Assembly: GCF_000189635.1 (NCBI RefSeq)
Contig: NW_002476174.1
Span: 1 to 64,000 of the forward strand
Direction of reading: 5' to 3'
Length of the DNA: 64,000 nucleotides
Source of the DNA: Tetrahymena thermophila SB210
Lineage: Eukaryota; Ciliophora; Oligohymenophorea; Hymenostomatida; Tetrahymenidae
The translations under genes were made by a program, and so were the position numbers. The notes under the pieces were generated by a model. That model was given only the letters and a program-made list of their open reading frames with translations. It was not told the origin of the DNA and ran no database searches. Positions 20,501-63,955 of the stretch are shown in pieces; within the stretch, counting starts at the first letter, position 1; every line of letters begins with the position of its first letter.

Positions 20501-23143
20501 GAAGCTTAGGATGATTTCTTAGAATTAAATACTGCCATTGATTTAGATTTTTAGTAGGGAAACTATTTTGGTTCATCAATCTCTTCACTACCTATAATTT
20601 ATGCTAAACTCTTTTATTATTTAAACTCTCTTTATTAAATCTACTATGATTTAGGGCTACTTTCAGTATTAAATACTTCATCAAAATTTATATTCTACCC
20701 TTAAGATTATGATATATTAATTTAACCTTCTTAATGCTAGCTCATTAACTTCACCATATTGTCATAGTCATGAATACTTTGTTAATCTATCTCCTTTTAT
20801 ATAAAAATATTTTGCAAAAATTCATAAAAATGCTAAACAAATTTTTTATCAATCGTTTTAGTTTAAACTATTTTTTGCTTAAAATAGCTTTAATCTTAAT
20901 AAGAATAAAATGAATTTCCTTATAATAACTAAAATTAATTTTGGAATTAAGGTTTCGAAAAAGTGGCTTTTATTCTAAATTTTACAATTAATTACTAAAA
21001 TACTTTTTTTATTTATTTTAAATAACTCTAAAATTTAATTTTAATTTTAAATAAATTATTAATTTTTTTTACTTATTTCTCGTTTTAAATTTTTGAGACA
21101 GATGACTATCTGGACCTTTGCTTGTTAGAGTTAGAGGAATTTTGTTTAGCTTTTTTTAAGTTGCTTTTTTTGGCTGAAGATTGATTTGACTATTATTACT
21201 GAGCACCTAATCTACCTTATCTTGGAGGGGGAGAAACTAAATTTTATTTTTTAGGAACTTCTTTCTTAGAATTTGACTTTTTATCTTGTTATTGCTATTA
21301 TGACTACTTTAAATCTTATCCCTATGATGATTAAGAGACGAATATTTTAGGGTTTTATTACTAAGCTTGCATAGTTTGTGATTTACCTATTGATTTGCTT
21401 GATTATCTATCTTTTTTGAGGTTTTAGTTATCTTATCTATTTGCTGAACTCACTAATGATGATGAAACAGAAGGAGTTTTCAAAGGAACTTACTAAGTTT
21501 TACCTTTTGATTAACTTCTTTTCTAAGGAGGTGATTGGTAGTCAGATGAAGTGAGATCTTTAGGCAAAACCTTTTTCATAGGTAATTACTCAGGTATTTT
21601 TTATTAAGATCCACCATTATTAGAAAGATTTGCTTGGTTAGTAATACTTAAATCTAAGTAAAAATTATGCTTTTCAGGACCTATTGGGATGTGATTGTAC
21701 ATAGGAGCAAAATAAACGTCTAAAGGAGTAATCTTGTCAATATATTTTTTAGCTTTTCTATGATTCTCAGATCTGAATTTTTCTGTTAAACAATTTAAAT
21801 AAAATTAAGTAAACTAAACACAATTTAATCTATTTACCTATTATTTCAATTGGAAAAGCTCCCTATCCTTTTTTAAGAATATTGACACATTTATTGTTTT
21901 CAAAGTTTCCATATATCCATGAGCAGCTTTATTTTTAAAAGAAAACACCAATACCATTGAATAATCCTTTCTATAAAAATCCATCAAAAACATCTCCATT
22001 ATGCAAATTCAATCTTCCTAATCCATCAAGACTGCCATCTTTATAGTATCCAACGTCGTATTTGCCATCAGAATATTTAAAGATACCTAAACTTGTTGGC
22101 ATGCTATTTTTAATTAATCCTAAATACTATCCTCCATCGTTAAAATTAATAGCTTCTATTTTAAGACCATCTTATTAGAATGTGTCGTCTTGGTGCTTAA
22201 CTGCTATATCTGAAGTTGAAGTTATGTAGTTAAATACATCTATTTTTAAAATATATTTTTATTTTTCATTCAAATTAGTAGCTTATTTTTTATTTATTGC
22301 TAATTAAAATTTGAAAAACTAGATATTTTTAGTCCTAGTTGTTGTAGCTGACTGCTACAAACTTATAAAAATAAATGCTATACTAATCTTAAAATTTATA
22401 AATATTGTATTCTAATATTTTTTGATAGATATGCATCTTGGCAGCTTATTTTATAATCTTAAAATCTTAAAATTATTATTTTACATGAAGGAGGTTGACC
22501 ATCGCCTTTTGAAATTATTTTTTTGAATTCGCCATTCTTATAATCAGAGAGAATCCATCTCTCTTCGTCACAAAAATATTTGTAACAATTGCCTTCTAAT
22601 TTACCATTTCTCCAGAAGCCTTCATAAATATCTCCATTTGAAAATTTGAAAAATGCAGCTCCATTTAGCTTATTTTTCATAAAGAATCCATGGATAAAAC
22701 CTCCAAATGGAAAGAAGAGAATACCTTCTCCATCTAACATATCATGCTTCCATTCTCCAAAATAAACTTCACCACTATCCCATGTGTATATACCTAAATT
22801 AGTTCTATCCTCATTAGGGTGTATCATACCTTAGTATATACCATTTCTATATTCAATGAGCTTGATTCTTTTTTCTAAATTCCCACTTTCTTATTCTTTC
22901 ATTTATAATTTAAAAACAATAAATCTAAACTGCAAAAATCCAATAAAGTATGCTAATATGAAGATATATAAACTGAAAAAAACTTATACTAGTGTGTTAC
23001 AAACCATTTTAATAATGCATAAAACAAAAAATATCTATACTTTTTCTAATTGTATTGGCTGATGAAATCGATGAAAGAGAAGGAGGTGATATATTTTAAA
23101 AAACTTTAACTTTAGAATCTCTGTCCATTCTAGTTTAACGCAT
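11572..23143 (-). CDS. Giant MORN-repeat and coiled-coil protein (about 3,311 residues)
   Basis: Ten exons fit in phase: 23041-23143, 22485-22895, 21838-22239, 21073-21782, 20099-20928, 19152-20043, 18934-19078, 17545-18845, 14602-17314 and 11572-14000. They sum to 3,312 codons with one TGA. Residues about 35-300 hold seven or eight MORN repeats (YFGEWKHDMLDGEGILFF, IYEGFWRNGKLEGN, YDVGYYKDGSLDGLGRL), which usually bind membranes or cytoskeleton. Residues about 300-1600 are Ser/Gln/Lys-rich linkers. Residues about 1610-2330 form a nearly continuous Glu/Lys/Gln coiled coil (RKQEEELAATAAKTALDV, then EALEKQKNQRIIEEEERLK). The last 800 residues are Ser/Asn/Thr-rich with repeated N-F/S-F-N-N patterns. 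A scaffold of the cortex or cilium is a reasonable inference, not shown. The first exon and the 22240-22484 intron are the least certain; a second ATG at 23128 is possible. Confidence 0.75.
14001..14601 (-). other. 601-nt intron of the giant MORN gene, open in frame
   Basis: The longest intron in the window. It has a GTAAATATT donor and a CAATAAG acceptor, and the flanking exons agree in phase (1/2). Reading straight through from the coiled-coil exon stays open for 194 codons to a TGA at 14018-14020, nearly the whole intron. Retention would swap the 800-residue tail for a different one of about 194 residues. That could be chance, since only TGA stops. Confidence 0.5.
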
Positions 23144-24254
23144 CTTCTTTTAAATCTAATGAACTATAAATGAATGTATTTTCGAAAAGTTTGAGCTTTT
23201 TGAAGTGCTTAAATTGCTATTTTAGGGGATGAAATAGAGCTAGAAAATATATTGGTCTGTAAATTCTATCTATATATACTTTATTTTAGAAGTTTACTTA
23301 TTTTTCTAAATATAAAAGTTATCTACAATAATAATAATTAATTAATATTTGTAATGCAATCAATTCATTCAAGACTTTTGAATTTATAATTAGTTATTTT
23401 TATTATTATTAATTCATAAATACAAACAAGAAAGCAAGCAATTAAGCAAATAAGCAAAAAAGCAAAATAATATGTGAATCATAATACATTCATAAATAGA
23501 TAGATATATTAGTTAATATTCAAAATTAATTTCAAAATTATTAATTGACTAATACAATTAATCTCTTAATCGATATTTTATTTACCTATTTATTTACTTC
23601 AATATCTTAAGTATACTTTTTAATTAGCTCTTTGAATTTTCTTAAGCTTGCTTTTTGTTAGCCAAATCAAAAGACTAATTTTCTCACTGACTTTTATTGT
23701 CAATTCAAGAAATTATGAACCATTATTTCAAATAAATTAAAGATATTTTTCAAAAATAAAAATTTATATTGATAAAATTCTCTTTTGAATATTTACTGAA
23801 TTTAATATATTTTCGCCTAAGAATTTTAAAAATATTTCAAACTATTTTTGTTCCAGATTCTAGAAAAGACCATTTTAGTTTATAAATACCTTACAATATT
23901 CTTTTTGTAATACAATAAATTTTTATTTTCTCAAAAATTTGTGCCAGTAAATATCGTTAATCAGCCAACTAACAAATTGCTTCATTTTTTGAATTATTTG
24001 TCAATAATATCTACTTCAGTTTAAAGAAAAAAATAATAAATAGGTAGATATTAAATTAAATTTGCTTTTAATTTAACAATTATGAACTACTTTTATAAAA
24101 TTCATACTTTATATAAAACAAAAATTGATTAATGACTAAAAATTTGTTTCCTAAATTACTAATTTAGCTAAAATTTAGCAAGATTTTGTTTAAACTAATA
24201 ATTTAGAAAATAGTTTACTCTGTGAGAAATTATTAAAATAAATTTTAGATTTTA
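23144..24254. other. Spacer with an AAGCAA-rich tract
   Basis: Non-coding as far as I can see. A short imperfect run of AAGCAA-like units lies at about 23427-23470. It separates the start of the giant MORN gene from the 3' end of the next minus-strand gene. No gene recognised on either strand. Confidence 0.5.
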
Positions 24255-28616: not shown

Positions 28617-29540
28617 TCAAACGAGAGGCTTATTGCTTATTAATTCCTAAAAGTAGTTTAGCTCTCTGCTGAAATTAGGTAAAAATGACTACCAATTTTG
28701 AGGGAATTAGATTTCTTCTTCAGGTAGCTCTTATATTAGTTTATCTTGTTTAAAGATTCCGCATCTAACTAGTTTACCCTCAAATGAAAATATTTTTCCA
28801 TGGCCTTCGTATTTATCTTCTTTCCAAAAACCAATGTAATATTTTTATTGATAGCAGTAGCACCCAAATCCTTAATAAAGCGAGTTTTTGAAATACCCAT
28901 AATAAAATTAGAATAATTTTTCATTTTATACAAAGAAGAATTTTCCTAAGCCTGATTAATCATTATTTTACCACTAGCCAGAGTAGATATTTCCATTAGC
29001 AAAGTAGAAGACACCTTAACCATCTCTTCCGTTATCTTTTATTCCACCCATATATATACTGCCTGATGGATAAAAATAGATGCCTTAGCCGAAGAGTTAA
29101 CCATCTTTAAATGTTCCCTCATACCTATTATTATTCGTTTTACCAGTCTAAGTAACTTCATATTATTTAGAGTTTGAGGGAGAATTTGAAACTCTTTGAG
29201 TAAAGAATTTCACTTTGTACTCTAAATTAGCAAATTCAGGAGATAAATTCAATTTTTTTTTGTTTATTTCCATCTTGTCGTCTTCATTTACTTCATCTGT
29301 TTATTAAAATGATAAATAATATAAATGTAGAAGTTTGATGTCATTTTTGATAATAGCCTTAAAATTTTTAATGAACTAATAATAATAATGACAAATTTTA
29401 CCTAAAATTAGTCCTGAAGCTATTTTATTGTCAAGATCATTCCAACTGGCATTAGAAGTTATCTGTTTATAGAAGTTTGGAGAAGATGAACCACTACTAC
29501 TTTGTCTGATTGGCTTATTTAATGTTTCTGTGTTTCCCAT
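28617..29540 (-). CDS. MORN-repeat protein, 272 residues, possible N-myristoylation
   Basis: Two exons, 29402-29540 and 28617-29296, split by a 105-nt intron; phases agree and the frame ends in TGA. The protein starts MGNTETLNKPIRQSSS. A glycine at position 2 with small polar residues after it is the usual setting for N-myristoylation, which would tether it to a membrane. From about residue 105 there are five to six MORN-type repeats (RYEGTFKDGQLFGQGIYF, IYMGGIKDNGRDGQGVFYF, IYSGQWQNNDQSGLGKFFF, YYIGFWKEDKYEGHGKIF). The protein is compact and lacks the large coiled coil of the other MORN protein here. MORN proteins with such starts usually act at membranes or the cortex; the specific partner is unknown. 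Confidence 0.85.
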
Positions 29541-31527
29541 CTTGAAATTCCAAAAATGAATCTAAAATAAATTCTTGTTTTTCCTTAGTTGTTTTATAAA
29601 TATCAAATAATATTCTTTCCTGACAGCTCCAGTTAAAGATGGTTATTAGCTTTAGGCTTATGAGTTAGTTTTATGTAAATTCTCTTTTATCTGGTGTATA
29701 ATTTTAAATTTTTTATATTTTTTTTATTTATTATTTGTTATTCCTTCCCTTAATTTAATCAATAGTTCTATCAACTTAGATTGATAAGTGTTTTTTCTAA
29801 TAATCAACCAGTTAATTAACTAAATAAATAACAAACAAAGAAACCAGAAACCTAAAACCCTATGTTAAAAACTTATTTTCTGCTAAATAGTCCTACTTAG
29901 TAATAGATGTATTTAAGAGTGAAATATATAGTACATAACTTTAAGATAATAAAAAGTTTTTATGACTAACATTTTTACTACATATTTAACATTCATTCAA
30001 ACTATTTTGTGGCAAAAACAAATTTAAAATATTCCAACCACTCAAATTAGAAATAAAGTAAGAAAAAAAAACAATAACACGGCTGCTACTAATAAAAAGT
30101 AATTTAGGTATTAATAAAGTAACGACTTGCATTTTTTATAAATTCTCAAAATTGATCTTAGCTGATTTAAGAAATTTGATAGCATCGTTAAAAGCAAAAC
30201 AAGTCAAATATTATGATCATAAATCACAAATAAAGTACTACTTGATTCATAAATAATCAATTGTTTATTCAAGTTATTTTTCCTTTCTTCTTCTACGATA
30301 CTTTGAATTAACAAAATATAAATGACTTCCATCGCATATTAATAATATTACTAACATATGAAAGAGTTAATATTCTTGCATAGAAGAGGAGAAGGATATT
30401 CATCTTTTATAAAATTAAGTCTTAAAATGAAGGTGTTAATGCGTGTGCTTGTCTTGCTTATTTAACCATTAATTTTTTAAACTTATAAATTTGCCTAGAC
30501 TAAAGTTTAAATATAAAATAAAATCCACTATAAAAATATAATATCAAAAAAACCAATATGTAAAATAATTACAACCAAGATTCAACTAATAATAAATAAA
30601 CATTTTATATTTGTATCATTAAACATGTTTAGAATTTATTTTCAAAGATTCTTGGGTGATTAAATTTGCTTAAAGAATATTTTTTGTGGTTAATTGTTAA
30701 CTTCATAATCTTAAAAGAAATTTTAGCCAGTCTTTGATAAACAAAAATGAATTGATTGATTTTAAAAGTAATGGAAAAATAAATAATAAATTTAATTAAT
30801 ATTTTAAGAAATATATTGAATTATTCTATAATAATGTTAAACTATTATTTATTAATCTATACTATATTATTAATTTTTAAGTTTTTATTTAAATCTATAA
30901 TTGTCATAGGATTCTCAGATTTATAATTTATTTGAATATGAATTGGTTATTTAGAAAAATAATTTAAATCTAGGTGTTAATATAAATTATAAAATCAAAT
31001 GAATTATTCAAAGAGTAAAATTTTAAGAAAATAAACAACATTAAACCAAATAAAAGTAAGAATTTTACTTTTTTTTATATAAAATGGATTTATAGCTTTT
31101 AATAGTAAATTTTTTGCAAAAATTGTTAAAATAATTTTTTTAAATCTAAATTTAATTTTTACCACAATAATTGATCTTATTTAATAAGCTTTTTCAATCA
31201 GTAAAACTTGAAGTTAAATATATGTATTAAAATAAATAAATAAATAATTTATTTTTTAAACTTAACATAAATAACTATAAAATGAAAGAGATATAATTAA
31301 TGAATAAATAAATACATATCCATTCATTCACTCTTCAAAAATCTAGTAAATTCTTTTTTTTCTAATTATCATTTTTTAATTGAATTTATTTGCTTTCAGA
31401 TATTTAAAGCTTAGAATGCATTTATCTTTTAATATTAAATTTGATATTTATTAAAGACCAATAGTAAAATATCAAAGAAACAATATTTATTTACTTTATA
31501 AAATTTGCCCAAATAATTCAATTATAA
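29541..31527. other. Spacer, one weak secreted-peptide-like ORF
   Basis: Mostly A/T-rich. The only item of note is the plus-strand ORF at 30427-30750, listed separately. A 43-codon minus-strand ORF over part of the same area (starting MNILLLFYARIL) is also open and equally uncertain. Confidence 0.45.
30427..30750 (+). CDS. Weak ORF with signal-peptide-like start
   Basis: 107 codons ending in TGA. The start, MKVLMRVLVLLIQPLIFQTY, has a basic residue, a hydrophobic core and then polar residues, like a signal peptide. The rest is Ile/Lys/Asn-rich, close to what AT-rich non-coding DNA gives. No family, no introns and no independent support, so it may be spurious. Confidence 0.15.
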
Positions 31528-46921: not shown

Positions 46922-49158
46922 TCATTTTTTAGGATTCGCTTATTATTTTTAGATATCTCCAATAGCTCTCGAAAACATACTATTAGTTGCAAGCTATTTA
47001 GGCTTGTCTACTGCTTTATTAGAATTAGTTACATTATTATTCATAGGACTATTTACATTTGAGTTATTTCCGCTATTTACCTTGTTCATGTTTATTTTGT
47101 TAGGATTAGTATTATTAATTTACTTTGGTTAATTCATTTTCGCAACAGGATTTTATTTTACTTGGTTTAATTTATTATTAGGAGTACCAACTCCATTATT
47201 ATTAGATAATTTATTGCTTTAAATCACATTATTGTGTTAAGGAGGAATTTTATTGGTACTTGGTATCATTTGGTTACTTTTATAAATTTAATTAGCCTAT
47301 TGAGGAATATTATTCGAAGATTCACCCTTAATGTCGTTTCCTGTGTTATCTTCTGTTTGATCTTTTTCTTATTCTATTTCTTTCTTTTTATGCACATTAT
47401 TCTATGTATTAATTTAAACAATAATATAACTACTTAAATCTATTTGCTTATTTGTTGAAAATAATTAATTTTTAAGAAAATTTAATTACTGAATTTAACT
47501 TAGACCAATCGAAAATATTATCGTTATTATATTCTAATTTATAAAAAAGAGCTCTAAACGATTACTTAATCTGATTATAATCAGGCTTCTCATCAAATTT
47601 TAAATCTCTTGTATATTTTATATATTGAGCAAATTCATCTATTTTTAAATTATTGAAAAAATAAATAGTTTAATTTTGTAAATAACCTTTTTTTATTCAA
47701 ATTCCTTGAATAATTCTTAAATTTATTAAAATATTTATTCATTAAAATTATTTGAATATTTGCTAAAATCTTTGAACTTTTTAAAATTACCTGGAAAACC
47801 TTTACATAATTCCTCTACAGGAGTATTCATTTTAATTTCACCTATCTTATCATACTTATCCTTTTTATTGTCAGCTTTAACTCCTTACCAAGGAAGAGAT
47901 CCCCTTAAGAAATATAAGAGAATGTATCCTATAGCCTCCAGATCATCTCTTCTACTTTATTCTTTTATTAAAGAATACAAATTAAATATTAAAAATATTT
48001 TAAATTTAAGAAAGCTAACTAACTAATTAATTTTTTTTGATTTAATTTTATCCTCTTATTCTATCGGTAAAGGTGTTCTTAATTAAATTAAAGGATTATT
48101 ACCTTTTCCAAGATGTGTATTTATAGAAGAATATCTAACAGTTCCTATAAAGGACTTCCCTTCCTTTTACTCTATATGCTAGCCTGTTTTAGCATCTCTG
48201 TATCTTTTTGCTAGACCGAAGTCAATCAAATAAATGTGATCAGCTTTTTATTTAGTTCCAATTAAGAAATTATCTGGTTTTATATCTCTATATATGAAAT
48301 TTTTTGCGTGTATCTATTCTATCCTAGAAATAATCTGCTCAACTATCATCAATACTGTCTTTAAAGAAAACTTCTTATTGCATAACTAAAAGAGATCTTC
48401 GAGAGATGGTCCCAATAAATCTAAGATAAGTATATTATAATCGCCATCTCTGCCATACCAGTGCTGATTAGGAATTCCAACTAACATTTTACATAATAAA
48501 CGAATTAAAATAATAAACATTTCTATGTCATTTTTATTAAAATTGTTTTTTAAGTTATTTAATGGTTTTCCTAAATGCATAATTTTGTGCAATAAATATT
48601 TATATTTGTAGCTCCTAAGAAAAATTGATAGTAAACTTGCTTTAAATAAATAAAGAAATATTCTAATAAAAAAATGGTTTTTACATTGTCCTTGCAATAT
48701 TTTATAAATTTTGTATTCCCATTAAAGCTATGGAAACTTTGTCTTTACTGACTCCTTTTTATTTATAATTTTTTGTTAGAATCATTTTTAAGATTTACTT
48801 AATAGCTAAATGGAAAGCTTTAAAAAATAAAAATATACAAGCTTAATCGCAACTTCTTCTTCTGTTTGGATGTTTGTGCCTAATGAATTTTTAAAAATAG
48901 TAAATTAAATGTGGAATCGAAATAACTTATTCATTTAAAAGCTTGTTGTAGAACGAAATATGAAAGTAAAAATATTGATTTATTGTTAATTTTAGTAGAA
49001 GAAAATATATAAAATCGCTTTAGATATCAGCAAAAAACTAGCGTAATGCAACATAATTAGATTTTAAACATTGATTTAGTACCTAAATATATTTCTCCAA
49101 AAGAGCCTGCTCCTATTTTTCTTCCTACTCTAAATTTTCCTCCGACCCTAACTTCCAT
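46922..49158 (-). CDS. Casein kinase 1 family protein kinase
   Basis: Seven exons in phase: 49083-49158, 48839-48879, 48685-48754, 48103-48480, 47791-47961, 47490-47638 and 46922-47383; 448 residues. All kinase landmarks of the CK1 group are present: glycine loop [12 protein letters not shown], lysine in EVAIKL, catalytic [20 protein letters not shown], the CK1-specific YSSINTHLG in place of APE, and [19 protein letters not shown] with GSLPWQG. Reaction: ATP-dependent phosphorylation of Ser/Thr, usually in acidic or primed sites. After the kinase core, the last exon encodes about 150 residues rich in Asn, Gln and Lys ([15 protein letters not shown]), a common regulatory-type tail. Small exons of 41 and 70 nt interrupt the N lobe. 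CK1 paralogues are numerous in ciliates, so no subtype is named. Confidence 0.92.
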
Positions 49159-49948: not shown

Positions 49949-51129
49949 TCAATGAACTATTTTTTAAGTAACTCTTGAATCTAACAAATCAGCTTCTTAA
50001 ATAGTTTGGTTAAATTAGGTGAGAGGTCTAGGAGGGAAACCGCTAATTAATTCAAAACTTCCATCAACAGGAGCGATTCTAATTATAATTTAATTTTAAT
50101 GTTGTTAAATACATATTTTTAAATCGAAATAAATATTTAATTACTAAGTAACATAGTCATAAAGAACGCTCACTTTGCTAGAAGTGTTAATTTTGATCTT
50201 AACTGTTTTACCATTATGCAATCTAATTTAAATATTGGTGACGGGCTTAGTTTCATCAACTATAATTTCTCCGTTCTTCAAGTTAACCTCTAAGGCTTGA
50301 GATTATGTGCTTGCTCCGCCAAGAGATTAACCTTATCCTGAAAATGCTACATATTTGGGTGGAGTTGGTGGTCTATATGCTTCAGACCTAAATTTTTAAT
50401 AAAATAAATTTAAAATTTGTATTTCAGCTTATTTAATTTTTTACCTTTTATCCTCTAGACTTACTGAAAGTCCTCCTTGGGGATACTTCTTTCTAAGTTC
50501 CATTGGGACAATCCTATAATTTACAAAATATAGTTAAAATTTTTAAATTCATTCATAAATTTATATTTTAGATTCAATGAATTTTGCTTTATAAAAAATC
50601 TATTACTATTAATTAAGTTCTTTCATAAATTGCTTATTTTCAGGGGCATTATAGTCTCTGAATTCTCCATCATCAATACAAAAACCATTTTGGTAGAGAG
50701 TAATTTTGCATTTCACTTCATCGTTTCTGCTTTTACCTCCTTTACCTTCATCTGAAGTTGTATTTCTGATTATTTAAAATATATTTATCTAAACCTGTTA
50801 ATTTTTGCTTTAAGTTACTTTTCAGCCTTTTCAATAATACCATTAATGTCATCTGGATTTTCAACTGCAAGTCCACTTTTTTTCATTTTATTAAATTATT
50901 TTTTTTATTGTTAGCTATTTTACTCATTTGAATTTTATTTACCTTTTTTCACCTCCTGCATATGAATTAGTTTTTTTATTATCTTTCTTATCGTCTTTCT
51001 TTCCTTTACATAAAATAACATTTTTTGTTCATCTTAGACTTATTACTCATTTCGCTTAAGAAAAAGCAAATTATTTATAATTTAATTTTGTTATTAAGTA
51101 CCTTTTAAATCGTCAAGAGTTTTGAACAT
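49949..51129 (-). CDS. p47/Shp1-type SEP-UBX cofactor of Cdc48/p97
   Basis: Seven exons in phase from the ATG at 51129: 51102-51129, 50943-51003, 50795-50875, 50607-50765, 50445-50513, 50145-50387 and 49949-50078; 256 residues. Shp1/p47 proteins bind the AAA ATPase Cdc48/p97 and steer it to membrane fusion, phosphatase regulation or degradation. Domains in order: FKTLDDLKGKK and SYAGGEKSGLAVENPDD; SEP domain ITLYQNGFCIDDGEFRDYN, VPMELRKKYPQGGLSVSLED and EAYRPPTPPKYVAFSGQGQS; then a UBX domain TNIQIRLHNGKTVKIKIN, ISGFPPRPL and TIQEADLLDS. The FP-R loop that docks on Cdc48 is present. No UBA domain is seen. One intron is only 29 nt (50766-50794). The frame stays open upstream to about 51345 with coiled-coil-like sequence, so the true start may lie further 5'. 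Confidence 0.87.
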
Positions 51130-51652: not shown

Positions 51653-54600
51653 TCAGCTGAAAATGATTTTAGAAATGTGTATAGACTCAGGATTTATGAA
51701 CATGTTTATGTCTTCGAAAACTAAATGATTTTGATTAAATCCAATATTGCAATTAACAAGTGTTGAAAAATTTGAAAAGAGTTGCTACTTTTGTTTTTTA
51801 TTTAACTTCCCTAATTCTATTTTCTGCTATTATGTCATATGAGGATTAAGATCATCAATAGATTCACTTTTTAGCAATATTAAAAAGTAGCTCTTGTTTT
51901 ATAAAGTTATATGGCATTCACCTTAAACAAGTTAAATGTCTCCATTATCGTCATTTAATCTTAATGAAAAGAATTATTTCTTGACGATTACTTCTTTTGC
52001 CTATATATATTTTTAGATAAATAATTTAATATATTTAAATATGAAAATTCTATCTTTATTTTATTATATTATTTATATAAATTTCTTTATTTACTTAATT
52101 GCTTTTTAGCTACTTGAAGTTTTTTTATATTTTTAAAGCTGCTACTTATTGATCTTCAGTAAATTCTTACTTCTTCTCAACTAACTTAGATTCAATTAAC
52201 TCTTAATTTGATAAATCTAAGTTTTTACTTTACTCTTTTGTCCCTTTGTCCTCCACACTTTCAAACGAATAATCAGCATTTTGCTCTTCTTCTATTTTAT
52301 CTTGTTTCTTTAAATTTTATGGACTTGATAAAACTTCTTCATCTTTAAAATCTTCATCATAATATTCATCCTTGTCTTCTTGTTATTGCTATTTTGATTT
52401 GTCTTCTTTCTCTTTTTGCAAATCAGATTAATTTTATTTTTCAAGATTTTGCTAAGTTTAAACTTTTTAAGCATTAGCAGATAAATTTTATTTTTATTTT
52501 TCAGAAAAAACTTCAGATTGGTTTAGTGATTCTAAATAAGAGTTTTCAGATAAAGTTTTATCTTTTACATTTAATTCTTCTTTCTGATTTTTTTGGTCAA
52601 AAGAAAATTAACTTTGATTTTACATCGATTATTTATTATTTATGTCATTTTAACTATCTTCTTTTTTGATAAAATCTTTATTTTCTAATTATTATTTTTA
52701 TTAATTTTGCTAAAAGAAAATTTTTCCTTTTTCTTCATTGAGATAAATTAGTTGCTCAAAAAATGGATTTTCAGATTGCATTACTTTTTCAATAAAATCT
52801 TTTTCTACTTCCTATTGATCATTAATTTTAGGTAATTTTAATTACTTAGGATTGAGAGAATCAACTTAAATTATATATTTTTCAGGTGTAATTTATCTGT
52901 AACACTGTAAAAAAAGCTTATGACTTCCAAATTAGACAATCCTATTTTATAATTATTATTTGAACTCTTAAGTAGCTTTGATCATATCTTCTTTAGCTTT
53001 ATCTTTAACTTTCTTATCTCTGAATGCACCTTAAATAAATTTAACTTTCTCTACTGTAAGCTCATCTTCTGGGATACCTTATTCTTCTTGTTTTTATTGT
53101 GTTTATATCTGCTGCTAATGCAATTACTACTATTGAAGTTTTAATTGTTAATCTAAAATAATAATTAAAATATAATTAAATTTAATTCAGTTAAAATAAT
53201 ATTAATAATACCATTTAAACTATTATTTTTATCCTCTTTGTGCTAATTTTCCTATTAGCAAACATAATCAATAGCTTTAGTAATTGAAAAATTTAAAGAT
53301 TTTTAAACTACAGAAGTAATTAAAGGTATATTATCTTTATTATCTAATTCTACATAATAAAAATTTTAACTATCTTTTCTTATATTGCATTCAAATGTTT
53401 TTTAATCAATTATTGTTGACCATCCTATTAATTTTAATTAATTAATTAATTAAAATTTCAACTTTTTAATTAAAAAAATAAATTTAATTTTTTACTTTTT
53501 GCAAACTTAATTTTTCTTTTTTCAGAGTTGATTGAAAATGAAATTTAAATTTGTTAAATTAAAGAAATTGCCACATTATCTTTAATTTTTCCCTCACTAA
53601 TATTAGACAAATTTATTATCCTTCTTAAATGAGGGTGTTTTTCATCTATCCAAATAGGAATGGCATGTACAATAACTTAATCTAGCACATTTGATTAGAT
53701 ACCTAGATTGTAGTGTTCGCTTACTCTTTTTATTATTTGACACTAAAAGTTAGGTTAATACTTTTGCTTTTCTTATTCTTTTTATTCATGTTATTATGAC
53801 TATTCTTTATCAATCAACTCATTATTTTAACTGGTATTTTATTATTATTTTATTTTTTCTTATTCTTCTAATTGTTGCTTTTCTAGTTCAATTTATCTTT
53901 GTCTTTCAATTTCTAATTATTTTTACTTTTCTGCTTCAAGTTTTTACTTTTCAAGTTCTTCTTATCTTTTTTTTTCAAGTTCAATTTATTTTTATTTTTC
54001 AAGTTCAATTTATTTTTATTTTTCAAGTTCAATTTATTTTTATTTTTCTAGTTCAATCTATCTTTGTTTTTCAAGTTCAATTTATTTTTATTTTTCAAGC
54101 TCCTGCTATCTTTGATTTTCTAACTCAATTTATTTCTACTTTTCAATTTCTTCTAAACGTTTTTTTTCAAGTTCAACTTACTTTTACTTTTTAAGTTCTT
54201 CTTATTTTTAGAGCTCTTATTAATCTAATTAATCCTAATGTGAATTATCTTAATTCTTATTAAATTGATTTTCTTAGTCATTAGAAATAATTGTTTATTA
54301 GTTTGTCTTTTAAACTTAAAACTACTTTTAATTTTAAAGTTTCTAAATTTCTTCAAGTAATTTATCTTTCTCTTACTTGAGCAGCAAATTTTCATTAACT
54401 ATTCTTTTTTATTCTTCTTACTCCTTTTTGACTTTTTCATACTCTTATTAGAGCCTTTCTTTTTCTGCTTTTTCTAACTGTAATTTTTTGAGTATTTCTT
54501 CTTTTTCTCTCTTAATTCTTTCTTCCTCCTCAAATTTAGCATTTTAATTATTATTAAGGTTAGTTTTATTAGTATCCTCATTACCTATGCTCTCTTTTAA

Positions 54601-57600
54601 TTTTTTCAACCTGTTTTCTTCTTCATTCTTAATATTTTCAAGCTCTTAAAGCTTTTTTTATCTTAAAATAAACATTAAATTAAATTTTCATATAAATATA
54701 ATTTTACTTTTCTTCTTCTTCTCTAGCTCTTTGCAATCTCAGTTTTTCAATTTCTTCCTCTTATTACTTCTTAATTTCTTTTAGCTTGGCTATTCTTTCT
54801 AACTCTTCCTCTTTTTACTTTTTATATTCATTTTATATCCTTTCTAATTCTTATTACTCTTTTTTCTTTTTATTTTATAACTCTTCTATCCTCTTTTTCT
54901 CTGTTTCTTCTTCAAGAATTAAATTTTATTTTATTCTAGCTGCATCTTCTTCTTCTTTTTTTTTCTGTTCTTAAAGTCTTTGCTATCTCTATTTTGATTC
55001 TTCCTCTTCATCTTACTTTAGCTTTTAAATACGCTCTTTCAATTCTGCCTCCTCTTACTATAATTTCTGAATTTATGTTTCAGCTTCACTCTTTATACTT
55101 TTTAAGAAGTCTTTTTAGTTATCTAAAACTTTTTTGTTTGTTCCTCCTGAAGCACTAGAGTTTGTGGGAGAGTCAACCCAATCATAAATATTCTAATTAC
55201 CATCTTCTTTGTCTTTAGAAGAATCTCTAGTTTATTTTTTATTTTTATTTTAAGGCCTGCTTAAATTTGATTTAACTGGAGCCTTATTTTAGCTGAAAGC
55301 AATCTAATTGCTTTTAGTAGTTTGAGCTGAAAATGGTCTACTAAGACCCCCTGATTATGAATTAATTTTTGGAGTTAAAGAATTAGCAAAGAATCCACCA
55401 TTTGGTGTGTTTTAAAATTTTGCACTCAAAGGACGGCTAATTTGATGAAAATTTTATTTAATTTCAGGATAGATGCTTTTAGAGCTGTTTGGCCTACTCA
55501 TTTTAGAAGCATTTATTTTATTTGCTGAAGACCTTTTTTAATTTATATTTTAAAACTTTACCTTAATAATTGTTGATAAAATTAACTATTTTACGTTCTT
55601 GTTTATTATTAGGAATTATTGGTATTTTTGTAATAAACAATTTTGCCATGTTGAGTAAAGTCTGTAGGCTTAACCCCATAAGAAAGCCTATAAGGATTAA
55701 CTTTACTTTGAATAAATTAAGTATTCTTTTAATCTTTTTCTCCTCCATTATTCTCATTGCTATACGAAGATACGTTTTGAAAGCTTCTATTCTTTGCTAG
55801 CATATTTTTTTGAGATGATGAAGGTCTTATAAGTTTCCTGTGATTTTTTGGCACTAAAGCTGACTTTTTCTCTGATTTAACTAATTTCTAATTTAAATAT
55901 TTCCAGTTATTAAATTTTATTTAATCAAAACTTTCAAGTAAGTTCATTTAATACAAAATAATTTTTTTAAGAATAAATTATCAAATAAATGCATGAAATG
56001 AATTAATTCTTTAAATAAAATAACTTACTTCATTAAATTTTTAAAATAGCTCTTTAAAGCGACGAGTTAATCTATGATTAGATCCTAAATTATCTTCGCA
56101 TACTTCACAAGCCTTACCATAATTTATCAAACTGACTTCGAAGTTTTAGAAAAATTCTTATTCTACTCCTACATTGTAAAAAGCAATTGCAAGAGCTTGG
56201 CAAATATCTACAAATTCTTAGTCTTTTATGGCTTCTTGATAATTCTTTCTATTTAAATAGTTTTAGTAATCCTTATGAATTTCAATTACTGCTTTTTTGG
56301 CGTTTTCTAATGAAGCATAATGTCTATTATTTTTAAAATAATATTAAAATATTCAATTACATTTATTTTATTTTATATTTTATGAAGTTTAATTTTTTTT
56401 TTTCCCAAAAAATTGTTTATTTATTTATCATATGAATAAACTGTATCATATTTACATGTGTTTATCTTATAAAAACAAACTAAATTTTATCGTTCTCCTG
56501 TAAAAATTTCTAAATTAATTAAATTGAAACAGTTATTTTTTATTAAGAAATTACTCATTCATCTGTGAAAGTACAGCTGATATGTTAAGATATGTCATAC
56601 CTAGATAATCCCTAGATTTAATAGAGTTTAAGAATCGTAGGGCTTATTCTAAATAGCCTAGAGCTTTTGGTAGCTGTTAAAGTCTTCGATAGTAACATCC
56701 AAAATTATTAAATGTTAAAGCACGAATTGAAGGGGGATTTTTGATAATACTGAGCTCTGTTAACTCTTTACTTTTAATTAAAATGAATAGAGACTTTTCA
56801 AATTAGTTTTAATTCAAGCTGTTAACAGCTTCATTATTCAAAAACTTTAATATTTGCTAAAAGAGTCTCATAAAGGAAGCAGGCCCTCTAACTTTTTGTT
56901 GATTAATGATCACTTTTTTTTATTATATAAAAATTTTTGAATAATTTATATTTTTACTGGCAAATTTAGTTAAATTATAAAAGATTAGTTGTAGGTTTCA
57001 GTTTTAGAGACTACTAAGTTTTTTTTTATATAATTAAACTAAAAAACCATTAATTTAAAATTTAGAGTTTACTTTATTCGCAAACATCCAAAGCTTCATT
57101 TACTCTATCCTCTTTGAAATCTTTTTGCAAATCTTCATAGCCCTCGAATGGCTAATTATCATTTATATCAGAAGCAAGGGAATCGTCTGGAGATACAATA
57201 TCATCTCGTTTATTTCCATCTGAGTACATGTCATTGTAGTAAATTTAGTTTTGTTTATTATTTGAAATCGGATTCATTTAATTTTACTAATTCATTTATG
57301 TTTGATTATAAAATTAACCTGAGGGGTTGTTGCTTTAATCAAAGTAGCCATCTGTATGCTCATCCTAAAAAAAATTTTAATGCTATTGCTACATCTAATT
57401 CGAATTTTTATAATAATTCTAAATCTGTGCTTATTAATATTCCTTTTGCTATTAGGCTTAATACTAATCTCCTGTATAATTATTTACATTTGAAGAATCA
57501 TAAGATTCTTCTTCTATTTGAGGTTGCTATGAAGGGTGATAATTTTCATATTGATTCATAGCAGCATTCATATTTTATTATTGAAAATTCTAAGCTTTAT

Positions 57601-57727
57601 TACTGTATTATAGTTATTAACCCTAGAATTGTTAGTTTTGATAAACTTATCCTTACTACTATTGTCTTTATCCACTATATTATTAATAATAAGGATTGTT
57701 TTGCTATCCCTAATAAGCCTAATCCAT
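51653..57727 (-). CDS. Large TPR and coiled-coil protein with IQ-like motif (1,747 residues)
   Basis: Nine exons in phase: 57073-57727, 56555-56912, 56029-56323, 55562-55887, 54708-55532, 53496-54661, 53212-53424, 52095-53152 and 51653-52000. Residues 1-210 are Gln/Asn/Tyr-rich (MDQAYQGQQNNPYYQQYSGQ), prion-like. Residues about 220-435 are TPR-type helical pairs (ALTFNNFGCYYRRLQQLPKA, ALGYLEQALRFLN, NYQEAIKDQEFVDICQAL). A Ser-rich linker leads to a coiled coil from about 650 to 1100 containing tandem ELEKQKQI octads. Then comes a globular-looking region (VIVHAIPIWIDEKHPHLRR; FYYVELDNKDNIPLITSVV), an acidic Gln-rich linker, an IQ-like segment QVAALKIQKNFKQLKSN near 1620, and a final beta-rich module (KKQFFSLRLNDDNGDIQLV). 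One intron is 29 nt (55533-55561). I do not recognise the whole; a basal-body or cilium scaffold is an inference from TPR, coiled coil and IQ. Confidence 0.75.
53976..54095 (-). repeat. Five tandem 24-bp units coding ELEKQKQI octads
   Basis: Units start at 53976, 54000, 54024, 54048 and 54072, exactly 24 bp apart; the plus-strand unit is caagttcaatttatttttat plus tttt. Three are almost identical and two carry substitutions. They lie inside the coiled coil of the 1,747-residue protein and each encodes eight residues, roughly ELEKQKQI. Degenerate versions continue on both sides. An eight-residue period does not match the usual seven-residue heptad, so the coil may be locally underwound. Recent slippage or unequal crossing-over likely made it. 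Confidence 0.85.
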
Positions 57728-58811
57728 AAAGTGCAACAATAATTTCTTTTTGTATTATTCGTATTTAAAAAGAGTTTTATAAATATTTAATTATAATTTT
57801 TTTTGCAAGTAAAAATACACTATTTGCGTAGGCCCTTAAATTTATATAAAGAAATTATTTAATTAAATTATACAATAATCGAATAGTATCTTTCAAACCT
57901 TCTATTCCTTCAAATTTAAGTTTAATTTTCCATTTATATAAATCAATGTTTTACTTTACTAAATTAATTTCAAAACTGTATTTTATAATTCATGCAAAAA
58001 CTATAAAAAAATGCACTATCACGCAATTTATTTTATTGTTTAATATAAAAAAAATAACTCTATAAAATTTTTTAAACATTATACAATTCTTCTAAAGTTA
58101 TTAATATTATATGCTGAAAGAGAGTTTTTCGATTTTAAATTCATTAAAAAATAATTTTTTTAATACTGATTTCAAAACTGTATTTTATTATTCAATCAAG
58201 AGCAGAAAAGTGAATTCATTTTTTTATCGTTTAGTATAAATCAATCAATCTCTTAAAAGCTAAAATTTATTAATTATGAGATTCATGTAAAAATAATAGT
58301 TTTATATTCTAAAAGAGAGCTTTCGAATATTAGATTCTTTAAAAAATCAGCTTGATTTTATTTAAAAAAATATTTTTTATAGAATCAATTTTAATATTTA
58401 AGTTTTTAATTTTTTATAAACTTAATTAATTAATATATATTAAAGAAATAATTGAATGATAGAATTATGATGATTATTGTAGATTTTATGTAAGGATATA
58501 CTAGAATTTACTTGCTAAAATTAATTAATTATATTTAAAATAGATTGAAAGATTTAAGTTACAAATAACATTTAATGAAAAATTATATTTTAAAATATTT
58601 ATAAAAAATATTTTATATTTTATTTCAGCGAAAAATAAAAATGTAGATTGATAAACTTTTAGCTGAGATTTATGGCTTAAAATAATGTAATTTTGCAAAA
58701 ACACTGAATGATTTTGATATCTAATAAAAACACTTAATAATTTATATTATTCATTTAAAATTGAATAATAATAGTTAAAGTTGTAAGTTTCTTAAATTAC
58801 AAATATAAATC
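57728..58811. other. Shared divergent spacer between two large genes
   Basis: About 1.1 kb of A/T-rich sequence between the starts of the minus-strand 1,747-residue gene and the plus-strand 1,588-residue gene. It presumably holds both promoters. Loose internal similarity exists: segments starting ATTTCAAAACTGTATTTTAT recur near 57968 and 58169, with an AAAGAGAG(T/C)TTT motif near 58119 and 58313. No gene recognised. Confidence 0.5.
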
Positions 58812-61800
58812 ATGAGTAAATCAATAATAAAGACTAGGAAATTGGATTATAAAAAAGTTTATAAGTCTCTAGAGGATTAGCAATTTGATGATAAAATAAC
58901 CTAAAATGACAAATAAACTAGCAGCAGAGCTAGTGAAAACATTCCATAATACATTGAAAGCAACTCAAGTGATAAAATATCAGCCAATATAGATTATTAA
59001 AATTCACAATTAAATGAATTAAACAGTAAACTGATAAAATCAAAATATTAAACGAATACTCAATTTATTTAGAACAGCAGTTATTAACTAAATCCTCCTT
59101 CTAAATAGGGAAAACCTAGTAACATTTAGAAATAAAATAATTCAGCTTTCTATCAAAGTAAAGATAAATCTAGCAGATAATAATCCTATAAAAATCTACA
59201 CTAAACTAAAACGGCAGAATTTGAAAAATAAAATGACTAATTTTCAGGTGATACTACATTTCATACAGCAATTTAAATATTAAAAAAGAATATTTCTAAG
59301 GGTCATCAAGTTGAAGTCCTTGAAAAATGTAAATGCCATTTTTCTTTTTTATGAAAACAAAAAATATTAATTTTAAAATGATAATTTATTTTAATTTTAA
59401 AAGTTATAAGAGGGGAAGATGATTTGGATAATTTCGAAGAAGTGATAAGAGCTTTGAATGAAGCTGCAAAAGAGTATTTATTAAATAAAGATAAGTAGAA
59501 AGCAATGCAAATTATAAATTTTTCTTATGAAACTTGCATCATAGAGAAGGTTTAAATCGAGCTTTAAGCAGAAACTATGCTAAATTATTGCTAAATAGCT
59601 AAAAAAAATAAAGAGTATAATAGTTCGATTTAAATAATACATAAATGCATAAATTTATATCAAGACCATCCATTGCTAATAAATATAGGAGTAGCTTATA
59701 ATATTTACAGTTAAATTCTCAGAAAACAAAATAAGTAATGATATTATTTAAAAGTATAACTTTTAGTAACAATTAACTTTTTATTTACTAAATTAAATTA
59801 AAAAATGATTATTTTCTATATATAAAGAATTTTAACTCAAAGTTATTTATAAATAATAGATTAAGAGAAGCTTTAGAGATGGCTAAAAAGGCCATATTTT
59901 ATAGTGAATAAAAATGCAAACTTCTTGCAAAGAGAAATGGGAATAGTGATATTTAGGATGAGTATGCTTAGAACTTAGAAAATGAATTATAAATTCAAAT
60001 AGCAGCTGCTTATTATAATTAAGCTTTATGTGAAGCTACTTTATTGAATAAAAAAAATGCTATTGCTTTAATTTAGTCAGCTATTGTTAAGGTAAGCTAA
60101 ATTTTAGGATAATCTAACCCTATTACAATAAAGTATGCTTAAAAGCTAAAATAAATTTCTTCTAATCAATAAAATAATTAAGAAAGAGAAGAAAGGACTT
60201 TTTCTGGTTATTAAAGTGAAACAATATATAGTAATACTAGCAGTTTTAATAAAAAAAATAACTCAAATTAAGTTATAGGAGTGACATTTAATGAGAATAT
60301 AAATGATGAGTATAATAGCATCCTTTACAACAAGAGTAATAAATCTATAAATTAACACTTGTCATAGAATAATGATTTGGAAGAAACAAGAAACTTAAAT
60401 AATATTAGACAAAGACCTGGTTCATCAAGTGGAATTAGCTAAACTCTGCGGATCTAAACACAATAGTAAAGACCATAGTCTGGTAAATCTAATTTAGGCA
60501 AAAAATTATTTATTAGTAAGAGGTCTTTATTGAAAAATAAAACAAATGATCAAATATCAACTTTAAAAAATTTACTTAAATAGGACTAATTACATAATGA
60601 AACTAAGCCTTTCATGTATTAAGATTTTAGTTATATTTCTCCAACTATGGTGCAAAAAAATAATTTAATGACCAGTAAATCTATTGAAGCTGAATTCTTT
60701 TAAGAATCTAAAGAAAGCTAGTATGTTGATAAAATAAGATTTTTATCAGAAACTGTAAAAAGTTTGTAGTAAGATATTGAAAAATTAAAAAGATAAAATG
60801 GATACCTTCAAATCAAGATATTTGACCATGAAAATTCTAACTCAAAAGTAATTCAAACTAATAAACAAGTAAATCATTTAAATATTCAAATTGAGGATAT
60901 GTAAAAAAGATTTAATGAACTCAAAGAAAAGAATGAAAAATGTGAAAAAGAGCATTTTGGAGAAATAGATAAGCTGCAAAGTGCTCTTAGAGATAGATCG
61001 GAAGTTCTCAAAAAGGTTTTAGAAAATAGTCAATAAGAAGTTTAAAAATACGAGGAAAGAATTTAAAAATTAATGACTGAGCAGGAAAAAAAGCAAAGAT
61101 AAGTCAATGACCAGATTTGTACTTTCGAGTTAACAAATTCTAAAAATTAACTGTAAATAAATACTTTGAAAAGTTAAATTTAAGAAATGATAGAAAGCCA
61201 TGCTGTTGCATAATAGAATAAAGATAAAGAAATTTAGAAATTGAATTCTTCACTGCAGTAGTAAGAAGAGCATTACTCAAGTGAATTATAAAAATACTAA
61301 AAAAATTAATAAGAAATATCGGAATAAGTAAAAAAAACCAACTAATTAGAATTAGAGCTAAAAAAATTAAAAGAAGAAAAGGAGTTAGTTGATTAAGCTC
61401 TCTTCAGGTACCGCAATTAAACAACTGATTTAACAGAAGAAACTAGCTCATTACAATAAAAATTATCTGAAGCTAACACAGAGTCAAAAAGTAAAGACGT
61501 AGTTATAGAGCAACTTCAAGAAAAATTAAAAGTTTTTTAAAATCTTAAGGAGTAGTTGACAGACAATTCGAAAGCGAATGATGAGCTACAGAAAGAGAAG
61601 AAAGACTTAAACTCACAGCTAAATAGAATATAAGAAGAAAATAAAAGGCTTTAAAATTTACTATAAGATGCTTAAAAAGATAACGATGAAAAAGAAAAAC
61701 TTTTGGAAATTTAAAAAAATATCAATAAAACTTCTGAAATCAATCAAGAAGAGACGTTGAAATAAGAAAATAATAAATTGAAAGAAAAACTTTCAATATT

Positions 61801-63955
61801 AACGAATGAAAATGAATAGCTAAAAGCTTAATTGTAAGGAGCTATCATAGATAGAAATTAAGATAAAATTTTGATAGCTCAATTACAATTAGATATTAAA
61901 GAAACGGAAGAAAAATATAGGGATTTAGAATAAAATGTAAATTTGATGAAAAAAAATAATGCTACCTTCAATGATATTAGAACAAAATAAATATACTCAG
62001 ATGAAGATGATGAGTCCCACAATGATTTATAAATACGTAAGAGTATAAATAATTTACCTCAAGAGTAAAGTAATATCAATGAATAAGAAAAAAATTTAGA
62101 TGATAGCATTGCCAACATTTAAAATAGCCTGAATGTCAATAAAAATAAAAAAATTCTCATATTGCAATAATTTGATAATGGGTTCAATGCTTTGATTGAC
62201 TTTTCATTTCATTGTCAAAATCATATTCTTAGTGTGGAAAAAAAGGGTGAACATCTCATAACAATAAATATTCACCAAGACATACTTTAAGTTTTTTACA
62301 CATCAAAAAATTTTTTCATTTTCTCAAAGATACTTCGTAGGTTTGCAGCTAATTTTTTGTAAAATAGCAATGGATAAATTGCTGAAGAGTTTATTTTTGA
62401 CGTGGATGAGATGACTTTTAAGTATGCACATAACTAAATAAAATATGAGAATTCTTATATTAAACATATGATTCAATAACTACCAGAATAAGTAATAAAA
62501 ATTTTCTCTGAATATTCATTCTTTAGCAATGAGGCGTCTGATTAAAAGCTAATTGAATTATCACAAAAAAAAATTACTGAATCTGAAGTGAAAGAAAAAA
62601 AAACAATTAGTTTTGGTGAAGCTATGGTTAATTGCGATCAACTTTAAGAAAAAGTACCAGTAAAATTTATTTACGATGTAAAAAAACAAGTGCTAAATAT
62701 TTAGCCAGCTAACCCTTAAATCTAAGGTATGAGAGTTTCTATTAAAAAAGAAGATACACAGCAATGGATTGTGCAAAATAAAGTAAATAAATAAATAAGA
62801 TTGAAACATTTTTGATACAAAAAATAAGTTATTTTTTTTTAATTTTTATAATTTCTAATAAAAAAGCTCATCTCCCTAGACAAATAAATAAGAGCTATTA
62901 AAATGGAGCATGTTAGATTCTTAAAATCAAGTATTAAGAGATATCATTTAGTCAATAGAGTATTCTCAACATACATAAGTTTGAGCCAATATGATCAGAA
63001 AGTTCACGGAATCCTTACCATATTCAAGGGAATTTAAAATTCATTTGTTTATATTAAAACTCTTCATAAAGAATAAAATTATAAAAGCTTTTATCAAATC
63101 TCAATGAATGATAAATCTTTTGAAAAACTGAAAGAAATATCAAAACAATATATCATTGATTAATGTTAATTTAACTATTCTAAAGGCATAATTTGGATGA
63201 AAAAGGATTTAGGTATTATCAATATCTATCCTAATTTAACAAATGTCATTCATACAGATTTAATCAAAATAACTCAAGAAGAAATATTTATAATCAGACA
63301 AAAAAAAGGTCTTAAAGATGAAAACTTTATTAGAGATGAATCTAGTGATACTCAATATGATACTATTTAAATTGTTGTTAAAATTGTTGATAATTAATTA
63401 ATTGTTTAACCTCTTTGGGATCTTCCAATAGCTCCTTTGCATAAAAAAGTTGAACCGACATAAAATGAAGAATAAATTAAGGAGTTATCAAAAATTTTAG
63501 TTCAAAAGGTAATTTTACTTATTAATTTAATTGGAAATTCATTAAAATAAATTAATAAAAAAAATAAGATAAAAGTAGATTACGATACATAAAAAAATTA
63601 ATTATGTTTGATTCTAAATGATCAAATAAATAATTCAGAGTGTTCGAAACAAAAACCAAGTAATATTTACAAATTAGATTGTTTGAATAAAACACTAAGA
63701 AAAACAAGAAATAATATAAATACTGCTCATTTAGCTTATATTGATGTTATCGAAGTGCCTGATCACACAGCAAAATCAACATGTAAACTCTAGATTCTGC
63801 TTAATACAAGAACAAATGAGTATCTAATTCGCTCATATCTCAAATAAGTGCATGAAATAAAGATACCAGCTCATAATCTATCTAAAGAGAAGCTTCTAAA
63901 TCTTTATTATGTAATAAATTAATTTTATTTTTACAAATTAAAGATTATTTTTTGA
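58812..63955 (+). CDS. Large TPR and coiled-coil protein (about 1,588 residues), partner of the divergent gene
   Basis: Exons 58812-59328, 59404-59734, 59860-62782, 62867-63508, 63569-63910 and 63944-63955 join in phase. Residues 1-150 are disordered and Ser/Gln/Lys-rich. Residues about 160-345 are TPR-type helices (FEEVIRALNEAAKEYLLNKD, LREALEMAKKAIFYSEQK, YNQALCEATLLNKKNAIALI). After an Asn/Ser-rich linker, a coiled coil runs from about 570 to 1000 (RFLSETVKSLQQDIEKLKRQ). A globular region follows (NALIDFSFHCQNHILSVEKK), then IRAIKMEHVRFLKSSIKRYH, which resembles an IQ segment, and a beta-rich tail. If the 62783-62866 intron is not used, the protein ends at 62815 (1,267 residues) and a separate gene could start at 62903. 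I prefer the joined form because the donor is good and the layout then matches the divergent gene. The last 33-nt intron keeps frame whether spliced or not. Function unknown. Confidence 0.7.

Follow-up and report, generated by a model that had tools for sequence, protein, structure and literature searches.

Tetratricopeptide repeat (TPR) domains serve as docking sites for peptides, coiled coils mediate oligomerisation, and kinesin light chain is a TPR protein with a coiled coil. According to the available part of PMC6564038, TPR is also one of the seven leading domains in the species-specific genes of Tetrahymena, which show much tandem duplication. A further point of comparison is offered by the CDKL5/LF5 kinases, which, as far as the available parts of these papers go, control cilium length in Chlamydomonas (PMC6293279, PMC6682161), have subfamily members in Tetrahymena (PMC6682161), and count MAP1S, CEP131, EB2, ARHGEF2 and IFT74 among their substrates (PMC6293279, PMC6293278, PMC12711092). 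Here we compare with these systems two large, divergently oriented genes, A and B, that lie within the first 64,000 nucleotides of Tetrahymena thermophila SB210 contig NW_002476174.1 (C318:1-64000 in our numbering; hereafter the window). We assign gene A with high confidence to a dispersed TPR-linker-coiled-coil family, of which gene B is very likely a second, very diverged member. A literature search found no account of such a family, although this does not prove its absence from the literature, and nothing was found in NCBIfam.

Gene models and the dispersed TPR family

The window has a GC content of approximately 18-32% (2-kb steps), and the genome searched with it comprises 101,022,631 bases in 445 contigs. 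Since the standard code leaves 2 open reading frames (ORFs) of at least 100 residues between 51 and 64 kb, compared to 30 of at least 150 residues under table 6, code 6 (TAA and TAG read as Gln) is required for reading this region. Gene models were generated by a codon-model Viterbi procedure trained on long window ORFs, including parts of A and B; two splice sites of gene A were adjusted by hand, and for gene B the Viterbi path was set aside at two C-terminal introns and at the long intron 59474-59865. The resulting models bear out the original prediction of two large divergent genes, separated by a spacer in which no coding signal was detected across six frames.

57727-51653, minus strand: gene A, predicted, 9 exons, 1736 residues
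57727-57073, 56912-56555, 56323-56029, 55887-55595, 55532-54708, minus strand: predicted exons 1-5 of gene A
54661-53496, 53424-53212, 53152-52095, 52000-51653, minus strand: predicted exons 6-9 of gene A
57728-58811, no strand: spacer between the ATGs of A (57727, minus) and B (58812, plus), 1084 bp, 16% GC
58812-63955, plus strand: gene B, predicted, 4 exons, 1616 residues
58812-59328, 59413-59734, 59860-62782, 62867-63955, plus strand: predicted exons of gene B

Both products also follow the same order of parts, as had been proposed: an N-terminus (of low complexity in each), TPR domain, Ser/Asn-rich linker, coiled coil and C-terminal region. Coiled coils were judged from composition, and paralogous loci are referred to by L numbers.

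56029-56874, minus strand: TPR domain of A, residues 232-436 (Pfam TPR_10, 5.7e-9; 194.8 bits to a hidden Markov model (HMM) of 10 paralogues)
56554-56324, minus strand: phase-2 intron interrupting the TPR domain of A, from the gene model
55142-55887, minus strand: Ser/Asn-rich linker of A, residues 437-664, with four sites of the form RPx[ST][AGPS]
55827-55813 (RPSSS), 55495-55481 (RPNSS), 55435-55421 (RPLSA), 55339-55325 (RPFSA), minus strand: sites in the A linker
53827-55141, minus strand: long Q/E/K coiled-coil region of A, residues 665-1087
53339-53763, minus strand: globular stretch of A, residues 1109-1226, spanning intron 53495-53425, from the translation
52710-53048, minus strand: IQ-like helix and beta-rich unit of A, residues 1304-1416, resembling units of L029 and L032
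51656-52151, minus strand: C-terminal stretch of A with ALKIQKNFKQLKS, residues 1603-1736, from the translation
59415-60154, plus strand: TPR domain of B, residues 174-378 (hhalign to 9 paralogues; 29.1 bits to the HMM)
59735-59859, plus strand: phase-2 intron interrupting the TPR domain of B, from the gene model
60155-60550, plus strand: Ser/Asn-rich linker of B, residues 379-510, with two sites of the form RPx[ST][AGPS]
60413-60427 (RPGSS), 60470-60484 (RPQSG), plus strand: sites in the B linker
60701-61957, plus strand: long coiled-coil region of B, residues 561-979
62141-62782, plus strand: C-terminal globular region 1 of B, residues 1041-1254, from the translation
62867-63952, plus strand: C-terminal globular region 2 of B, residues 1255-1616, exon 4, open in the spliced frame

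Searching the genome with the TPR piece of A (E <= 0.001) returned at least 19 matches, 17 of them outside A and some representing exons of one gene; B was missing from these matches. Two further genome searches with paralogue pieces added loci, and the counts are lower bounds. Thirteen loci were modelled, then four more, with L040, L043 and L045 set aside by eye as kinesin-light-chain-like. Besides A and B, the family comprises at least 14 genes (L028-L039, L042 and L044) on 12 other contigs; L044 was admitted on a 60-residue match and is absent from the tree and HMM below, L042 features in the tree only, and the Viterbi models of several paralogues extend into neighbouring genes. The layout that had looked unique is broadly a family layout.

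In an 11-row alignment of TPR domains, A shares 41% identity with L029 (contig C283), 28-36% with eight others, among them L028 (C31) at 36%, and 17% with B. Scored with the HMM of 10 paralogues, from which both genes were excluded, A and B reached the 194.8 and 29.1 bits given above, compared to 5.4 bits for the best of 400 shuffles. Pfam assigned the TPR piece of B to TPR_12 at 8.6e-6, below the database's own cut-off. An hhalign comparison of nine paralogues, again without A and B, with the B domain gave a probability of 97.6% (E 2.7e-12) over B positions 4-207, i.e. the whole domain, while control comparisons with the family including A yielded 0.4% for reversed B and 0.0-0.1% for five shuffled versions.

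Intron positions provide a second line of evidence. Gene A has a phase-1 intron before the TPR domain, a phase-2 intron inside it (LSQMN^E) and a phase-0 intron at its end; gene B possesses a phase-1 intron before the domain and a phase-2 intron inside it (LRKQN^K), the latter aligned with that of A. Among the 14 paralogue models, the phase-1 intron occurs in three (L029, L032 and L035), the phase-2 intron is matched to the residue in two (L029, LNQIG^D; L039, LSRLN^K) and the phase-0 intron is found in six (L029, L032, L035, L037, L038 and L042). L038 has an intron near the phase-2 site that is in phase 1, and L028, L031 and L034 lack any intron within the TPR, such that the three-intron set is not general in the family. 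Counted on the models, the phase-1 intron of B lies approximately 8-10 residues nearer the TPR than in A and its relatives, so that this site agrees in phase and rough place only. The family profile and the two same-phase introns, one exactly aligned, support a common origin of the TPR regions of A and B, which are related via the family only.

Linker motif and candidate role

The sites of the pattern RPx[ST][AGPS] in A and B all fall within the post-TPR linker, while some paralogue sites lie elsewhere. In the available parts of the sources, the CDKL5 consensus is given as RPX[S/T][A/G/P] in PMC6293279, where peptide tests favour Arg, Pro and a small last residue, and as RPXS in PMC6293278; PMC12711092 reports R-P-x-[S/T]-P for Chlamydomonas and cites R-P-x-[S/T]-[A/G/P/S] as the mammalian form. 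Across the 16 family members, RP.[ST] occurs 25 times, compared to 2.24 expected from whole-protein shuffles and to a mean of 3.04 (maximum 8) under shuffling in 60-residue windows. The strict pattern occurs 19 times against a shuffle mean of 0.63 and maximum of 5 (200 shuffles), with four sites in A, two in B, three each in L028 and L029, two each in L035 and L042, and one each in L032, L034 and L036; for these counts L030, L033, L036, L037, L038, L039, L042 and L044 were trimmed at lengths chosen by eye. Background sequence, which included L040, L043 and L045 and came partly from the tails of the same rough gene models, contained 2 sites in 36 segments (21,225 residues) versus 0.31 expected, and none in 16 more segments (4,536 residues). 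Six of seven control patterns were flat, and the excess gave p 3.4e-4 in a rate test and p 1.2e-4 for members versus segments. Elsewhere in the window, a small ORF at 49951-50548 (minus strand) contains two matches to RPx[ST], of which one also fits RPx[ST][AGPS].

Several features of these data count against reading the sites as kinase targets. The strict motif is present in 9 of the 16 members and absent in 7; the last position is A, G or P in 10 of 19 sites and Ser in the other 9, outside the consensus that PMC6293279 itself derives in its available part. The pattern was moreover spotted by eye, first tried with [AS] in the last position and set to [AGPS] after reading, and RQx[ST][AGPS] was mildly raised (6 versus 2.00, equal to the shuffle maximum). 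Both p values are too optimistic because the members are related and not independent draws. With motif counts unable to discriminate function and the motif-bearing members sharing descent, there is about an even chance that the linkers inherited these sites as a signature that serves some other purpose, for instance docking or phosphorylation by a different kinase; on the other hand, Arg, Pro and a small last residue match the CDKL5 peptide preference just cited, and the linkers looked unalignable apart from the motif.

A scaffold role suits A and B because both are large and combine a TPR domain and coiled coil with phosphosite-like linkers. In such a scaffold the TPR domain would dock a partner, the coiled coil would form oligomers, and the C-terminal domains may bind cytoskeletal partners, with an IQ-like helix of calmodulin/centrin type in A and some paralogues. 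A CDKL5/LF5-type kinase, known for Tetrahymena from PMC6682161, would mark the linkers, and their phosphorylation might tune how the scaffolds assemble or localise at the cilium, basal body or cortex. The CDKL-regulated part of the proposal draws on the control of cilium length by CDKL5/LF5 and on the presence of the subfamily in Tetrahymena, as introduced above. The best overall explanation, in our view equally apt to hold or to fail, is that A and B are diverged members of a TPR-linker-coiled-coil scaffold family with an inferred ciliary, CDKL-regulated function. A kinase-regulated cytoskeletal role for the family is, from sequence features, a tentative candidate, and we consider it doubtful that the disordered linkers serve as multi-site CDKL5/LF5-type kinase platforms (four sites in A, two in B) that connect the signalling of cilium length with scaffolds of the cortex or basal body. 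If true, ciliates would give a ready set of candidate CDKL5/LF5 targets, and the serines concerned are named here for two genes. Should the family part alone prove right, less is gained: a seemingly unique layout becomes one of many members, and TPR paralogues are seen to diverge far with intron positions kept.

Origin of the pair and extent of gene B

The original prediction derived the pair from an inverted duplication with later divergence. Of this, common descent of the TPR regions stands, while the view of A and B as each other's duplicate is not favoured, given the 41% identity of A with L029 against 17% with B. A tree of 15 TPR domains was poorly resolved (one of 12 inner branches starred); in it B has an end branch of 4.44 and a best identity of 24%, to L029, and forcing A and B into a clade was 4.71 log units worse (p-AU 0.136). 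The head-to-head placement represents a local arrangement of family members and perhaps an old inverted duplication. A second neighbouring pair, arranged head to tail on contig C300, consists of L042 (model 237865-242480) and L035 (from ~243008), which were fused by the joint model and both lie within ~238-250 kb; the family may well undergo local duplication.

C-terminal regions were also predicted to match between A and B, in an IQ-like helix and a beta-rich end, and here the profile similarity found for the TPR regions did not extend. Comparing two A pieces with three B pieces by hhalign gave probabilities of at most 0.2% in all six comparisons; the A piece bearing the unit at residues 1304-1416 was compared by blastp instead, and blastp among the C-terminal pieces, including this one, detected no significant A-B match. 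The proposed IQ counterpart in B, AIKMEHVRFLKSS, lacks the IQ glutamine, and Pfam IQ (PF00612) had no match in the scanned C-terminal pieces of A and B; the same model is above cut-off in a piece of L032 (21.1 bits).

Of three definitions tried for a C-terminal unit, one yielded a match. A hand-made unit of seven pieces scored 1.6 bits in A and -0.3 in B (shuffle tops 5.9 and 5.4) and was rejected, as was a longer unit built from five paralogues, which scored 1.9 bits in A (reached by 6 of 300 shuffles) and 0.5 in B (43 of 300), its own jackknife giving 20.2, 18.8, 11.2, 8.3 and 3.0 bits. The third, termed IQ-beta, is an HMM of 11 units, five from L029 and six from L032, and scored 15.1 bits with residues 1304-1416 of A, a value reached by none of 200 shuffles (top 12.0). 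The end of A scored 0.5 bits (reached by 60 of 200 shuffles) and the score of B was reached by 126 of 200, leaving the end of A, like B, within shuffle range. In the jackknife, just 4 of the 11 training units scored above every one of 50 shuffles. A second round with the A segment added gave 2.1 bits for the A end (33 of 200) and -1.8 for B (158 of 200) and was not retained; an IQ-beta unit in B, as seemed present by eye, was dropped. Judging by these scores, a single IQ-beta unit is probably common to A and the paralogues L029 and L032, and the predicted likeness between A and B is not supported.

Other C-terminal searches were negative. Pfam had no match for the two exon pieces of the A globular stretch (residues 1109-1226), the A C-terminal stretch (residues 1603-1736) had no relative in the genome at E <= 0.01, and phmmer of C-terminal pieces against the first 13 paralogue models gave nothing useful. 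Globular region 1 of B had no relative in Pfam, PDB or the genome, and none was found for region 2. Among the paralogues, L029 and L032 display, beyond the TPR and linker, several successive units of IQ helix and beta-rich segment that might constitute a repeat domain not yet described, and the C-terminal half of L031 (C91:1349200-1359199) contains a tandem array of at least 14 very similar IQ motifs.

Against this background, descent of A and B from one local inverted duplication, with B diverging much faster and the shared spacer possibly co-expressing the two, is conceivable and somewhat improbable. The genes are adjacent, have the same layout and two same-phase introns, their clade is not rejected, and L042/L035 provide another adjacent family pair. 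With ~26,000 genes in the genome and 16 members, ~0.009 adjacent pairs would be expected by chance, a figure biased because B was found through adjoining A. Conversely, A is closer to all nine aligned paralogues (28-41%) than to B, no C-terminal similarity was found between the two, and more diverged family members may be missed.

We consider it improbable that the TPR of B is a generic repeat unrelated to the family, resembling it by convergent composition and layout. Compared directly, the TPR regions of A alone and B alone reach an hhalign probability of just 2.1%, blastp between A and B finds similarity in low complexity only (best E 0.049), and genome searches with the TPR and C-terminal pieces of B find only themselves. 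Two results speak against membership of B in particular: the kinesin-light-chain-like L040 matches the family profile including A at 94.4% (E 9.2e-8, 153 columns), and scores 21.1 bits with the HMM versus 29.1 for B. Because a generic TPR scores nearly as high, sequence alone is moderately specific, and since B lies only slightly above that level, the claim of membership rests on the introns and the full-length alignment. The profile alignment indeed covers the whole B domain, the phase-2 intron falls at the exact aligned residue with a phase-1 intron just upstream of the domain, and the B linker carries motif sites; we retain B as a family member.

Equally improbable is that the plus-strand gene stops at 62815, leaving 62867-63955 as a separate gene or noncoding: a TGA at 62813-62815 in the unspliced frame fits such a stop, as does the codon score of exon 4, which is weak at 0.065 per codon versus 0.048 and 0.043 in the other frames, but two open frames are connected through a GT-AG intron at 62783-62866, the spliced frame of exon 4 (62867-63952) has no TGA in 362 codons compared to 6 and 16 in the other two, and with the next ATG (62903) as the start of a separate gene the intergenic distance would shrink to ~87 bp. 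As modelled, gene B probably extends beyond this TGA.

Further features of the window were recorded. Judged by eye, a casein-kinase-1-like kinase with a Q/N-rich tail lies at 46922-48697, and MORN-like repeat proteins at 22270-23328 and 28617-29996 (YEGFWRNGKLEG; YEGTFKDGQLFGQGIYFY), all on the minus strand. Another very long Q/E/K coiled-coil ORF (14018-17500, minus strand) is adjoined by S/N/Q-rich ORFs at 11572-14091 and 17467-19116.

Comparison with known systems

A family profile of 200 positions, including B, was compared with PDB, and the best 60 of 76 matches were considered. Among these, only generic TPR proteins were found (designed TPRs, OGT, kinesin light chain, TTC29 and others), all matching in part. 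Kinesin light chain is, with OGT, among the best natural matches; its matches span at most profile positions ~5-104, and a kinesin-light-chain identity is not supported, the match being partial where a TPR of that type along the whole domain was looked for. Unlike kinesin light chain, A and B have a long coiled coil after the TPR, followed by a further C-terminal region. TTC29 is likewise a TPR protein; its profile match (1.6e-8) is partial, confined to positions 12-123, in a chain of ~475 residues compared to 1616 and 1736 for B and A.

The species-specific TPR genes of Tetrahymena differ in that the available part of PMC6564038 describes no TPR-linker-coiled-coil-IQ family. For the CDKL5/LF5 substrates, no sequence relation to A or B is claimed, the sites in A and B being predicted from the motif. 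The likeness lies in the motif: these substrates, as presented in the available parts of the cited papers, carry RPx[S/T] with a mostly small next residue and are proteins of the microtubule, centrosome or cilium.

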